From Pelagibacteraceae bacterium (GTDB lineage: Bacteria; Pseudomonadota; Alphaproteobacteria; GCA-002720895), in the NCBI GenBank assembly GCA_002717245.1, contig PBCY01000022.1:1-37224 (forward strand): a stretch of DNA of 37,224 bases. The letters run 5' to 3'. This document shows positions 3,339-17,641 of the stretch, piece by piece (the stretch's first letter is position 1; the number at the start of each line of letters is the position of its first letter). Made by a program: the position numbers and the translations under genes. The notes beneath the pieces were generated by a model, which was not told the origin of the DNA, searched no databases, and saw only the letters and a program-made list of their open reading frames with translations.

Positions 3339-5180
3339 ATGTATAAATATCCAAACATTGATAAATTATTATCTAGAAGAGCTTTTTTACTTAGCATAGG
3401 AAAAGGAGCTTTATTTTCTTCAATTTTTCTAAGACTTGCTTATCTGCAATTATATAAATCTGATCAATATAAAGTTTTAGCTGAAAAAAATAGAATAAGT
3501 CTAAGATTAATACCACCTTTGAGAGGTGATATTATTGATAGAAATAATAAAATTTTAGCTTTAAATAAAAATAGTTATAACATTTTAGTTGAAGGTGTAA
3601 AAAATATAAATTCTTTTGAAAATATAATTGAACAAATAAGTAGAATTATTTATATAAATGAAGCAGAAAAAGAAAAAATTTATGATACTTTTTTAAATAG
3701 AAAAAAATCAGATTTACCAATATTTATAAAAAAAAACTTAAAATGGAATGAGTTAGCATCTCTTAATGTTAATTTAATTAATTTACCAAATGTATTTATA
3801 GAGCAGGGTATAAAAAGAGAATATCCTTTTAATGAATTAGCAGCTCATGTTGTTGGTTATATGGCTACTCCAAAGAAATCTGATATTAAAGAAAACCCAA
3901 TTTTAAAAATGTTGGATACAAATATCGGACGTTCAGGAATTGAAGAAAGTTTTGAAAAGGAATTGAGAGGGTTCCCTGGAACTAGACATTTAGAAGTTAA
4001 TGCCAGTGGAAGAGAAATTAGAGAAATAAGTAAAGAAGAAAGCGTAAGAGGAATAAATGTTAAGTTAACCATAGATATAAAACTTCAAAAATATGTTAAT
4101 TCTTTACTTAAAGACTTAAATGGATCAATAGTTGTTATAGATGTTAATAATGGAGATTTATTAGCTATAGAATCTTCTCCTAATTTTGATCCTAATTTAT
4201 TTACAAAGAGTATTTCACAAAAAGAATGGGATAAATTAATAAAAAATCCTATGTCACCATTAGTTAACAAATCAATTTCCGGAGAATATTCTCCTGGCTC
4301 AACATTTAAATTAATAGTTTTATATTCCGCTTTAATTAATAAAGTAATTGAGCCGAACGGAACAATCAATTGTGCAAGCAAAGTTAAATACGGAGATAGG
4401 AACTTTTATTGTTGGTGTCATAAAAAAAAAACTGGATGTTTTGCTACTAGAACACATACAAGAAAAGTTGGTCCAGAATTAGCAATAGCACAATCTTGTG
4501 ATAGTTTTTTTTATGAACTAGCAAAAAGAGTAGGAATAGAAAATATAGTTGAAACAGCAAGAAATTTTGGACTTGGTTCTAAAAGTGGTATTAATTTAAA
4601 AGGAGAAAAAGATGGTTTAGTTCCAAATAAATCGTGGAAAAGAAAACATTTAAAACAAAGTTGGAAGATAGGAGAAACAATGATTACTGGAGTTGGGCAA
4701 GGTTTTTTAACTGCTACTCCAATGCAACTTGCAGTAATGACTGCAATTTTTGCAAATGATGGAAAAAAAATATTTCCTAGTATCTTTAAAGATTTGAATC
4801 GACCTGGTGGTGTTGAAAATGAAGTTTTTACCAGACAAACTATAAACCAAAAGAAATTTTTTTCTTTAATTAAGAGTGGAATGTTTTCAGCAGTTAATAA
4901 ACCGTTTGGCACTGCTTTTAAATCTAAAATAAATAACCCAATTTTTGCAGGTAAAACTGGGACTGTTCAAGTAAGAAATATTACTGAAAAAGAAAGAGAA
5001 ATAGGTATTATTGCAAATAAAGATTTGCCACTTAAAAGAAGAGACCATGCACTTTTTGTTGGTTTTGCCCCATATAATAATCCTAAAATAGCATTATCAG
5101 TTGTCATAGAACACGGTGGAAGTGGTTCTAAGGTAGCAGCACCTATAGCAAAAAAAATATTTAGAAAAATTTTATCATAG
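3339..5180 (+). CDS. mrdA: Penicillin-binding protein 2 (elongation transpeptidase)
   Basis: PBP2 is the D,D-transpeptidase that cross-links lateral peptidoglycan, paired with the glycosyltransferase RodA. The 613 residues comprise a cytoplasmic tail, one N-terminal membrane anchor (about 15-40), the PBP dimerisation domain (PLRGDIIDRNNKILALN) and a transpeptidase domain. The catalytic motifs are SxxK (STFK, residues 321-324), SxN-type SCD in AQSCDSFFYELA, and KTG (539-541). The anchor contains SRRAFLLSIGKGALFSS, which resembles a twin-arginine signal. A Cys-rich insertion (YCWCHKKKTGC) precedes the SCD motif. Its position directly before rodA supports the call. Confidence 0.97.
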   Translation: MYKYPNIDKLLSRRAFLLSIGKGALFSSIFLRLAYLQLYKSDQYKVLAEKNRISLRLIPPLRGDIIDRNNKILALNKNSYNILVEGVKNINSFENIIEQISRIIYINEAEKEKIYDTFLNRKKSDLPIFIKKNLKWNELASLNVNLINLPNVFIEQGIKREYPFNELAAHVVGYMATPKKSDIKENPILKMLDTNIGRSGIEESFEKELRGFPGTRHLEVNASGREIREISKEESVRGINVKLTIDIKLQKYVNSLLKDLNGSIVVIDVNNGDLLAIESSPNFDPNLFTKSISQKEWDKLIKNPMSPLVNKSISGEYSPGSTFKLIVLYSALINKVIEPNGTINCASKVKYGDRNFYCWCHKKKTGCFATRTHTRKVGPELAIAQSCDSFFYELAKRVGIENIVETARNFGLGSKSGINLKGEKDGLVPNKSWKRKHLKQSWKIGETMITGVGQGFLTATPMQLAVMTAIFANDGKKIFPSIFKDLNRPGGVENEVFTRQTINQKKFFSLIKSGMFSAVNKPFGTAFKSKINNPIFAGKTGTVQVRNITEKEREIGIIANKDLPLKRRDHALFVGFAPYNNPKIALSVVIEHGGSGSKVAAPIAKKIFRKILS

Positions 5181-5184
5181 TAAT

Positions 5185-6285
5185 ATGGATATAAATAATA
5201 TTCTAAGTAGAATTAATTGGTTTTTTATAATAATTTTAGTACTGATTTCATCTATTGGTATTGCTTTATTATATTCTATTGCAGGCGGTTCTTGGGAACC
5301 TTGGGCATCAAATCAAATTATAAGAATTTCAATAGGACTATTAGTTTTGATTTTAGTATCTTTTGTGCATGTAAGAGTTTGGTATAGATATGCCAATTAC
5401 TTTTATTTGTTTAGTATTTTTTTAATTTTAATAACATTGTTTTTTGGTAAGGAGGTTAGTGGTGCAACTAGATGGATAAATTTATATTTTTTTTCTTTCC
5501 AGCCCGCGGAGCTTGTTAAAATATTTATATTACTTGCTTTAGCAAAGTATTTTCACTCTATTAAGTTACAAAGTCACGATATAAAACAAAGAATATTCTT
5601 TCCTTTATTAATTTTACTTATACCTGTTTTTTTTGTTTTTAAACAACCTGATTTAGGCACTGCATTAATAATTTTTTTTTCAGGCGTTATAGTTTTATTT
5701 TTATCTGGGGTTAATATAAAAACATTTGTTTTGTCAGGTATAGGAGGATTAATATCTCTTCCAATTTTATGGACATTTCTTAAAGATTATCAAAAGTCAC
5801 GTATAATAAATTTTTTAGATCAGCAAAGTAACACTTTAGGAGCCAATTATCATATTACACAATCTAAGATTGCTTTAGGCTCAGGAGGTTTTTTTGGTAA
5901 GGGTTTTCTAGAGGGTAGTCAAAGCCATTTAAATTTTATACCTGAAATGGAAACAGACTTTATTTTTTCAGTTTTAGGAGAGGAATTTGGATTCTTAGGA
6001 GTTATGATATTATTTTTTTTATATTTTTTACTAATTGCTTGGGCGTTAAAGGTAAGTTTTGAATCAAAAAATTATTTTTCTAAAATTTTTGGAATTAGTT
6101 TTGTCGCATCTTTTTTTATAGTTATTTTTGTAAATATAGGAATGGTAACCGGCATTATTCCAGTTGTTGGTGTTCCATTACCTTTTTGTTCATATGGAGG
6201 ATCAGCAATATTATCAAATTTTATTGGTTTTGGTATTATATTAAGTGGATATAATTATCGTGATTTTAAATTACATAATATTTAG
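5185..6285 (+). CDS. rodA: Rod shape-determining protein RodA (SEDS glycosyltransferase)
   Basis: RodA is the SEDS-family peptidoglycan polymerase of the elongation machinery and works with PBP2. The 366-residue protein has roughly ten membrane segments. It carries SEDS hallmarks: GATRWINLYFFSFQPAELVK, KQPDLGTALIIFFSGV, FIPEMETDFIFSVLGEEFGF (containing the functionally important Glu/Asp region) and GVPLPFCSYGGSAILSNF near the C-terminus. FtsW is the main alternative, but the mre/mrdA context makes RodA the better call. It starts 4 bases after the mrdA stop. tRNA-Lys follows 6 bases after its stop, so the tRNA may be transcribed by read-through from this operon. Confidence 0.97.
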   Translation: MDINNILSRINWFFIIILVLISSIGIALLYSIAGGSWEPWASNQIIRISIGLLVLILVSFVHVRVWYRYANYFYLFSIFLILITLFFGKEVSGATRWINLYFFSFQPAELVKIFILLALAKYFHSIKLQSHDIKQRIFFPLLILLIPVFFVFKQPDLGTALIIFFSGVIVLFLSGVNIKTFVLSGIGGLISLPILWTFLKDYQKSRIINFLDQQSNTLGANYHITQSKIALGSGGFFGKGFLEGSQSHLNFIPEMETDFIFSVLGEEFGFLGVMILFFLYFLLIAWALKVSFESKNYFSKIFGISFVASFFIVIFVNIGMVTGIIPVVGVPLPFCSYGGSAILSNFIGFGIILSGYNYRDFKLHNI

Positions 6286-17055: not shown

Positions 17056-17084
17056 CTTGAAAACAAGTTTTGTTTACCTTATAT
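17056..17084 (+). promoter_or_regulatory. RpoH (sigma-32)-like promoter of hsp20
   Basis: CTTGAAA (17056-17062), a 14-base spacer, then CCTTATAT (17077-17084) closely match the sigma-32 pattern CTTGAAA-N(11-16)-CCCCATNT. The predicted start of transcription is near 17091, giving a leader of about 58 bases before the hsp20 ATG. The heat-shock gene directly downstream makes this assignment likely. Confidence 0.7.
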
Positions 17085-17090
17085 GGCACT

Positions 17091-17148
17091 ATGGGATATG
17101 CCGATTATGGGTATCTAGATTATAAACTTGCTTTAAAAAGGAGTTAAA
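17091..17148 (+). promoter_or_regulatory. ROSE-like RNA thermometer in the hsp20 5' leader
   Basis: The leader can form two hairpins. The first is 17094-17116, a GC/AT stem with a bulged G100 and a GAUUAU loop. The second masks the ribosome site: AACUUGCUU (17125-17133) pairs with AAGGAGUU (17138-17145), leaving one bulged G (17130) opposite the Shine-Dalgarno AGGAG (17139-17143). An anti-SD UUGCU with a bulged G opposite AGGA is the hallmark of ROSE elements, which control small heat-shock genes in rhizobia. Melting on warming would free the ribosome site. Folding was done by eye. Confidence 0.6.
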
Positions 17149-17604
17149 ATGATGGATAAAGTCCCTTCAATTTTTAACAATTTAAGACCTTTAACTATAG
17201 GATTTGATGATGTTTTTGATCATTTTGAATCTTTGTTAGATGATGACTATAGAGTCACATCATCTAGAATAAATTATCCACCATATGATATAAGAAAAGT
17301 TGGTGATAATAAATTTAATATCGAGGCTGCTCTTGCTGGTTTTAATAAGAATGATATAGAAGTGTTAACAAAAGATAATACTTTGACTATTAAAACCAAA
17401 AAGGAAAAAACATTACATAATAATAAGAATGGTGATAGCGAGGTTCTCCATAAAGGTATTTCAAAAAGATACTTTGAAAGATCTTTCACAATCGCCGATG
17501 ATGTTAAAGTACTTGGAGCTGAATTAAAAGATGGTCTTTTAAAAGTTTCCTTAGAACGTTTAGTACCTGAGGAAAAAAAAGAAAAAGTTATCGTAATTAA
17601 ATAA
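17149..17604 (+). CDS. Small heat-shock protein (Hsp20/IbpA-like)
   Basis: A 151-residue Hsp20-type holdase that binds unfolding proteins and passes them to ATP-dependent chaperones. The N-terminal arm (FDDVFDHFESLL) is followed by an alpha-crystallin domain: YPPYDIRKVGDNKFNIEAAL, AGFNKNDIEV, ISKRYFERSFTIADDV and late AELKDGLLKVSLERLVPEE (the G-L-L region). It ends KKEKVIVIK, a basic tail. Two adjacent ATGs (17149 and 17152) are possible, and AGGAG is 5 bases before the first. RpoH-type promoter and ROSE-like leader signals precede it, and a hairpin terminator follows. Confidence 0.95.
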   Translation: MMDKVPSIFNNLRPLTIGFDDVFDHFESLLDDDYRVTSSRINYPPYDIRKVGDNKFNIEAALAGFNKNDIEVLTKDNTLTIKTKKEKTLHNNKNGDSEVLHKGISKRYFERSFTIADDVKVLGAELKDGLLKVSLERLVPEEKKEKVIVIK

Positions 17605-17612
17605 AAAAATTG

Positions 17613-17638
17613 AATGGGGTGGCTTTTTTGGCCCCATT
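17613..17638. terminator. Hairpin terminator between hsp20 and the convergent nuclease gene
   Basis: AATGGGG (17613-17619) and CCCCATT (17632-17638) form a perfect 7-bp stem with a loop containing six T. There is no long T run right after it on either side, so it is a modest terminator. It lies exactly between convergent stops and could serve both strands. Confidence 0.55.
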
Positions 17639-17641
17639 TAG

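Follow-up and report, generated by a model that had tools for sequence, protein, structure and literature searches.

The hsp20 gene in the window (the whole 37,224-nt stretch of DNA analysed here) raises the question of whether its short leader could act as an RNA thermometer beneath a heat-responsive promoter. A first-pass annotation had proposed these two layers, an RpoH-type promoter and a ROSE-like element, and the layout it described (an RpoH-like promoter, a leader of about 58 nt and hairpins with a bulged G) was recovered base for base. The features of the locus are as follows.

17056..17084, + strand: predicted RpoH (sigma-32)-type promoter, CTTGAAA-N14-CCTTATAT (basis: sequence, orthologues and rpoH in the genome)
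17092..17157, + strand: whole ROSE-type element (Rfam ROSE_3, RF02523, model positions 1-69 of 69)
17094..17116, + strand: hairpin I, stable, with bulged G17100 (UAUGCC/GGGUA) (basis: fold, SAR11 homologues and sister genus)
17125..17145, + strand: hairpin II, putatively thermosensing, anti-Shine-Dalgarno strand AACUUGCUU paired with AAGGAGUU, G17130 bulged (basis: fold and SAR11 alignment)
17138..17143, + strand: Shine-Dalgarno sequence AAGGAG, inside hairpin II (basis: sequence; orthologues have AGGAGG or AGGAG in the same place)
17149..17604, + strand: hsp20, IbpA-like small heat-shock protein of 151 aa (PF00011, E 1.1e-17)
17612..17640, + strand: likely intrinsic terminator, AATGGGG...CCCCATT followed by T (basis: sequence reading)

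The gene gave the single match of a PF00011 search and is the sole HSP20 gene of the source genome; the best NCBIfam match of its product is IbpA, with 99 bits, under the cut-off of that equivalog. Because the likely terminator follows it directly, hsp20 is probably monocistronic.

hsp20 Is Preceded by a Predicted RpoH-Type Promoter

Upstream of the leader, CTTGAAA occupies positions 17056-17062 and CCTTATAT positions 17077-17084, with 14 bases between them. Judged from these letters, the stretch would qualify as an RpoH-dependent promoter (CTTGAA as -35, CC-TATAT as -10, spacing of 15-16), and transcription would be expected to start near 17090, giving the leader of about 58 nt. Read as CTTGAA-N15-CCTTATAT, it is similar to CTTGAA-N15-16-CCTATAT, the consensus quoted for Sinorhizobium RpoH1 (PMC4843759), from which it differs in a -10 element one base longer than CCTATAT. 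The promoter also recurs at the orthologues. In most of the 80 hsp20 loci of Pelagibacteraceae (SAR11) that served as relatives (L070-L149, the best named relatives, with 55-62% protein identity), TTGAA and a CC[AT]TAT-like -10 lie about 55-65 bases 5' of the start codon. Moreover, RpoH is encoded in the source genome (TIGR02392, 345 bits, over the model cut-off), and on these grounds the promoter assignment of the first-pass annotation was upheld. The promoter pattern alone is not rarer than chance, with 3 matches in the AT-rich genome vs 2 for a reversed control pattern.

The source genome carries two RpoH-type sigma factors, at C14:61159-61968 (345 bits) and C4:30665-31468 (251 bits), which can be likened to the RpoH1 and RpoH2 pair of rhizobia. 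A second good RpoH-like promoter match, CTTGAA-N14-CCTTATTT, was found on the minus strand at G000:C14:57649-57676.

The Leader Is Predicted to Fold Into Two Hairpins of Unequal Strength

For the leader followed by no more than 7 nt of coding sequence, RNAfold draws both hairpins. Numbering positions by the last digits of 17xxx, hairpin I consists of the pairs G94-U116, G95-C115, A96-U114, U97-A113, A98-U112, U99-G111, C101-G110 and C102-G109, and hairpin II of A125-U145, A126-U144, C127-G143, U128-A142, U129-G141, C131-G140, U132-A139 and U133-A138, so that the AUG at 17149 follows 3 nt after it. The predicted energy of hairpin I is -6.0 kcal/mol at 37 C and -13.1 at 5 C, and that of hairpin II is -2.3 kcal/mol at 37 C and -7.4 at 5 C. 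Hairpin I being the stronger, the order of stability fits a ROSE-type design. The folding energy of the leader does not stand out (z is -0.5, and 51 of 200 shuffles do as well). Since the energy alone is unremarkable, the case rests on comparison, and the sequence of the window taken by itself cannot prove a thermometer. When 36 nt of coding sequence were added, nearest-neighbour folding gave competing pairings, with about half of the probability on the pairing of the anti-Shine-Dalgarno strand with the Shine-Dalgarno sequence and little temperature dependence. Nearest-neighbour models do not cover the non-canonical pairs of ROSE elements.

The Leader Matches the ROSE_3 Family Over Its Full Length

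At gathering thresholds, Rfam annotated nothing at the leader. At an open threshold ROSE_3 aligned with the element from end to end, with 34.5 bits and E 6.2e-6 (161 nt searched). As this score lies below the curated gathering score of 43, we file the element as ROSE-type and not as a member of RF02523. The Rfam search suggested by the first-pass annotation was thus favourable as to ROSE_3, under this reservation, and negative as to ROSE (RF00435), which has no match in the source genome at E <= 0.01. The leader is the sole ROSE_3 match at E <= 0.01 in the whole source genome (E 1e-5), and among 385 genomes drawn from the class 11 have such a match at E <= 0.01, one of them over the cut-off.

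The element also has the sequence and structural traits by which ROSE thermometers are recognized: the gene whose 5' UTR contains it encodes a small heat-shock protein (the PF00011 gene from 17149); its 3'-proximal hairpin pairs U(U/C)GCU, the ROSE signature (PMC3669281), imperfectly with the Shine-Dalgarno sequence, leaving one G unpaired (17130); and it has two hairpins, where ROSE elements have two to four, the upstream one being stable. The idea that so short a leader might be a new minimal form of ROSE did not hold, for Pseudomonas has proven two-hairpin elements with a length of 61-62 nt (PMC3669281), and ROSE_3 itself measures 69 nt.

Both Hairpins Are Conserved in SAR11 and Other Relatives

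The order to which the window belongs comprises six genomes, and this hsp20 is found there only in the source genome and in that of the sister genus (L003). Hairpin I and the UUGCU/Shine-Dalgarno hairpin II are present in all 80 SAR11 loci and in L003, and these recurrences, together with the ROSE_3 alignment, support the proposed ROSE-like thermometer. The SAR11 leaders are remarkably alike: GUAAGUCGCC-UAAU-GGGGCUUAC is followed by either AACUUGCUU-loop-AAGGAGG or ACCUUGCU-loop-AGGAGG, and this by AUG. Of the 80, 79 fit a strict two-hairpin expression; the exception, L140, has UGGAGG but retains both arms and UUGCU. In L003, hairpin I (CUAGAUGCC-AUUA-GGGUCUAG) has another sequence and the same design, and hairpin II pairs CCUUGCU with AGGAGG. 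The more distant L004 also has a GCC-loop-GGG hairpin I with a UUGCU/Shine-Dalgarno hairpin II, and the plan is kept, besides L004, in the more distant genomes L159, L162, L163, L164, L166 and L187.

Loss of the UUGCU pairing in orthologues would have spoken against a thermometer, and we found no such loss, the motif being kept in 80/80 SAR11 loci. This constancy and the full-length ROSE_3 match weigh against fortuitous hairpins, that is, a hairpin I serving as a 5' mRNA stabiliser and a UUGCU that complements the Shine-Dalgarno sequence by chance. A fold energy no better than that of shuffles, and the occurrence of an anti-Shine-Dalgarno strand before AGGAG and ATG at five other places in the genome, are what such a coincidence would lead one to expect, and we regard it as highly improbable.

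No gathering-level Rfam ROSE match was obtained in the 20 loci tested (19 SAR11 and L003). Two SAR11 leaders were searched at an open threshold, of which L101 gave weak matches to ROSE (17 bits) and ROSE_3 (15 bits) and L080 gave none. Since the Rfam models yield no gathering-level match and weak or no matches at the open threshold, the SAR11 ROSE elements appear to be unannotated in Rfam. No description of a ROSE element in SAR11 was found in the literature searched, an absence that is not proof of novelty; in a study of SAR11 strain HIMB5, one of the motifs is mentioned as a possible RNA thermometer with no further specification (PMC6429828).

Covariation and an Independent Covariance Model Support the Structure

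Covariation was assessed in a motif-anchored, gap-free alignment of 42 distinct leaders (A5), including the window and L003, with the loop centres removed; motif anchoring was preferred because MAFFT alignments shifted UUGCU by one base. Over the 15 pairs, 95.9% of the cells are standard-paired vs 87.5% in shuffles, two-sided changes amount to 43 cells vs 10.7 in shuffles (cells count sequences, not events), and the covariation score of 0.313, vs 0.155 in shuffles, was reached by no shuffle. Offsetting the partners by 1-3 columns brought pairing down to 38-64%. Hairpin I has two-sided changes in 6 of its 9 pairs. The UUGCU/AGGAG core of hairpin II is invariant across the SAR11 alignment and therefore has no covariation of its own, and one flanking pair covaries (C-G in 19, A-U in 6, not paired in 16). 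The covariation that the first-pass annotation had proposed to look for in 17125-17145 is hence confined to that flanking pair, and it is the element as a whole, through hairpin I, that covaries. A model-fitted alignment (A7) gave the same trend, but leans to structure by construction. Three weak extra hits in A7 (L086 4409, L144 5294 and L077 638, with G+C of 18-22%) are probably due to chance.

A covariance model (R1) was also built from 15 SAR11 leaders, leaving out the window and L003; its E-values are rough. Within the window it placed the site at 17096-17151 first, with 30.7 bits against 11.3 for the next, and this site ranks first in the whole source genome as well (E 1e-3; next site 22.1 bits). 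L003 was detected with E 8e-8.

Codons 2-4 of hsp20 May Offer a Second Partner in SAR11

In SAR11, codons 2-4 of hsp20 read ACA AGT AAG, each in 78 of the 80 loci (e.g., L070 2504-2512), while elsewhere in the gene lysine is encoded by AAG in 19% of cases and serine by AGT in 11%. Of 101 well-conserved codon columns, codons 3 and 4 alone lack any synonymous variation, and codon 2 is in the top five. These codons supply AAGUAAG or AGUAAGG, which pair over 7 bp with the CUUGCUU or CCUUGCU of the SAR11 leaders, and so the anti-Shine-Dalgarno strand might have two partners, the Shine-Dalgarno sequence and the start of the coding region, forming a two-state switch and not a simple zipper. In keeping with this, L135, whose start deviates, keeps AGUAGGG, and L003 (1452-1500) has in codons 2-4 a perfect 7-bp complement (UUGCUAU/AUAGCAA) unrelated in sequence to the SAR11 one and predicted to supplant the Shine-Dalgarno pairing at 37 C. 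No other in-frame coding window in the SAR11 or L003 hsp20 complements as well. In predicted SAR11 ensembles taken from 5 to 45 C, pairing with the Shine-Dalgarno sequence falls from 0.53 to 0.35 and pairing with the coding region rises from 0.13 to 0.33, but this shift is modest; L004 has no coding complement, and in the window the best coding pairing spans 6 bp, one of them G-U, and is equalled by 9% of coding windows. A two-partner switch is accordingly quite unlikely as the reading of this leader. We also consider unlikely, if a little less so, a broader scenario for SAR11 and its relatives, in which the Shine-Dalgarno sequence and codons 2-5 compete for the anti-Shine-Dalgarno strand in a bistable switch, with the coding arm under synonymous-site selection, and the lineage of the window keeps the ROSE hairpin with the coding arm lost or weakened. 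These observations hint at a competing hairpin, which is a lead for SAR11 and no property of the window.

Self-Repression by the Small Heat-Shock Protein Is a Plausible Added Layer

Alternatively, the main function of the conserved leader might be to bind the small heat-shock protein, which would thereby repress its own translation, temperature being sensed indirectly by titration of the protein on aggregates. E. coli IbpA represses its own translation via the ROSE-containing 5' UTR, R93 being essential for mRNA binding, and Arg93 and Tyr34 are both needed to bind its own 5' UTR (PMC10474464). By the motif R-x-F-E-R, R107 of the window protein would correspond to R93, an equivalence drawn from the motif and not from an alignment with E. 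coli IbpA, and it is invariant in the alignment of relatives (A1); by the YPPY motif, tyrosine Y43 would correspond to Y34, which is also noted as conserved. Under sulfur limitation, the IbpA protein of 'Ca. P. ubique' (SAR11_0181) is listed as up in a condition that has no listed change of ibpA mRNA (PMC5069961 table), which is compatible with translational control. In gamma-proteobacteria, however, self-repression works with the thermometer and not in its place, which makes it an added layer. As the main role of the leader we find self-repression rather doubtful; as a third layer on hsp20 it would be plausible, going by the residues that the protein has in common with E. coli IbpA.

hsp20 Is Absent From a Genome of the Same Genus

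In a genome of the same genus (G004, L156:3313-5920) the neighbours that follow hsp20 downstream keep their order, and the basic-protein gene upstream has its end at 3825; hsp20, its promoter and its leader are absent, and a TPR-sulfotransferase-like gene (3840-5435, minus strand) lies in between. No ROSE element was found at this syntenic place. In a protein tree the window hsp20 groups, weakly supported, with Pelagibacteraceae and not with L003. Some species may have lost the gene, and the lineage of the window may have gained it horizontally; both are possible. That the contig with hsp20 might be a contaminant (6% contamination is listed for the bin) was considered and rejected, the downstream neighbours being syntenic with the same-genus genome.

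A Proposed Two-Layer Model and Its Relation to Known Thermometers

We favour, with a probability of roughly 0.87, the reading of the leader as a short two-hairpin ROSE-type RNA thermometer, in which RpoH drives transcription and hairpin II gates translation. RpoH would transcribe hsp20 from the promoter at 17056-17084 when heat or unfolded protein raises its activity. At low temperature the UUGCU strand would trap the Shine-Dalgarno sequence in the weak, bulged hairpin II and block the ribosome, and upon warming hairpin II would melt while the stronger hairpin I remains folded, allowing translation to start. Of this model, the analysis shows the elements in the sequence, how they are conserved and that hairpin I covaries; the dependence on RpoH, the melting and the translational response are proposed by analogy with the ROSE elements of Pseudomonas and rhizobia.

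Such a leader would widen the range of ROSE thermometers to include a marine alphaproteobacterium with a streamlined genome and, on the same evidence, practically all Pelagibacteraceae hsp20 leaders examined. SAR11 bacteria, which rank with the most abundant cells of the ocean, have very few regulators and are exposed to small shifts of temperature. If a thermometer is kept in all the genomes examined, it would count among the few direct temperature sensors known in SAR11, and this reading yields a prediction, open to test, about translation as surface water warms.

Compared with known systems, the element has in common with fourU of Salmonella agsA a weak, U-containing strand that masks the Shine-Dalgarno sequence, but fourU sets UUUU against AGGA, whereas here it is UUGCU with a bulged G. 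With Rfam ROSE (RF00435, 94 positions, the Bradyrhizobium hspA type) it shares the UUGCU/Shine-Dalgarno core in the 3' hairpin and the small heat-shock gene, and it differs in having two hairpins instead of three to four. The likeness to ROSE_3 (69 positions) extends to the full-length alignment, both hairpins and the same bulge in each, although the element stays below the gathering score and its SAR11 relatives score lower still or do not match. Among tested elements the nearest are the two-hairpin ibpA leaders of Pseudomonas, 61-62 nt in length, where melting opens hairpin II and spares hairpin I, and where hairpin II is sufficient by itself (Krajewski et al., 2013, PMC3669281). Unlike these, the element described here is A+T-rich, is known from its sequence, and has a hairpin I with a bulged G (GCC/GGG core), as in ROSE_3. 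It has in common with them a leader of similar length, a stable hairpin I and a weak hairpin II with U(U/C)GCU set against the Shine-Dalgarno sequence, as well as the small heat-shock gene downstream and, presumably, transcription by sigma-32.
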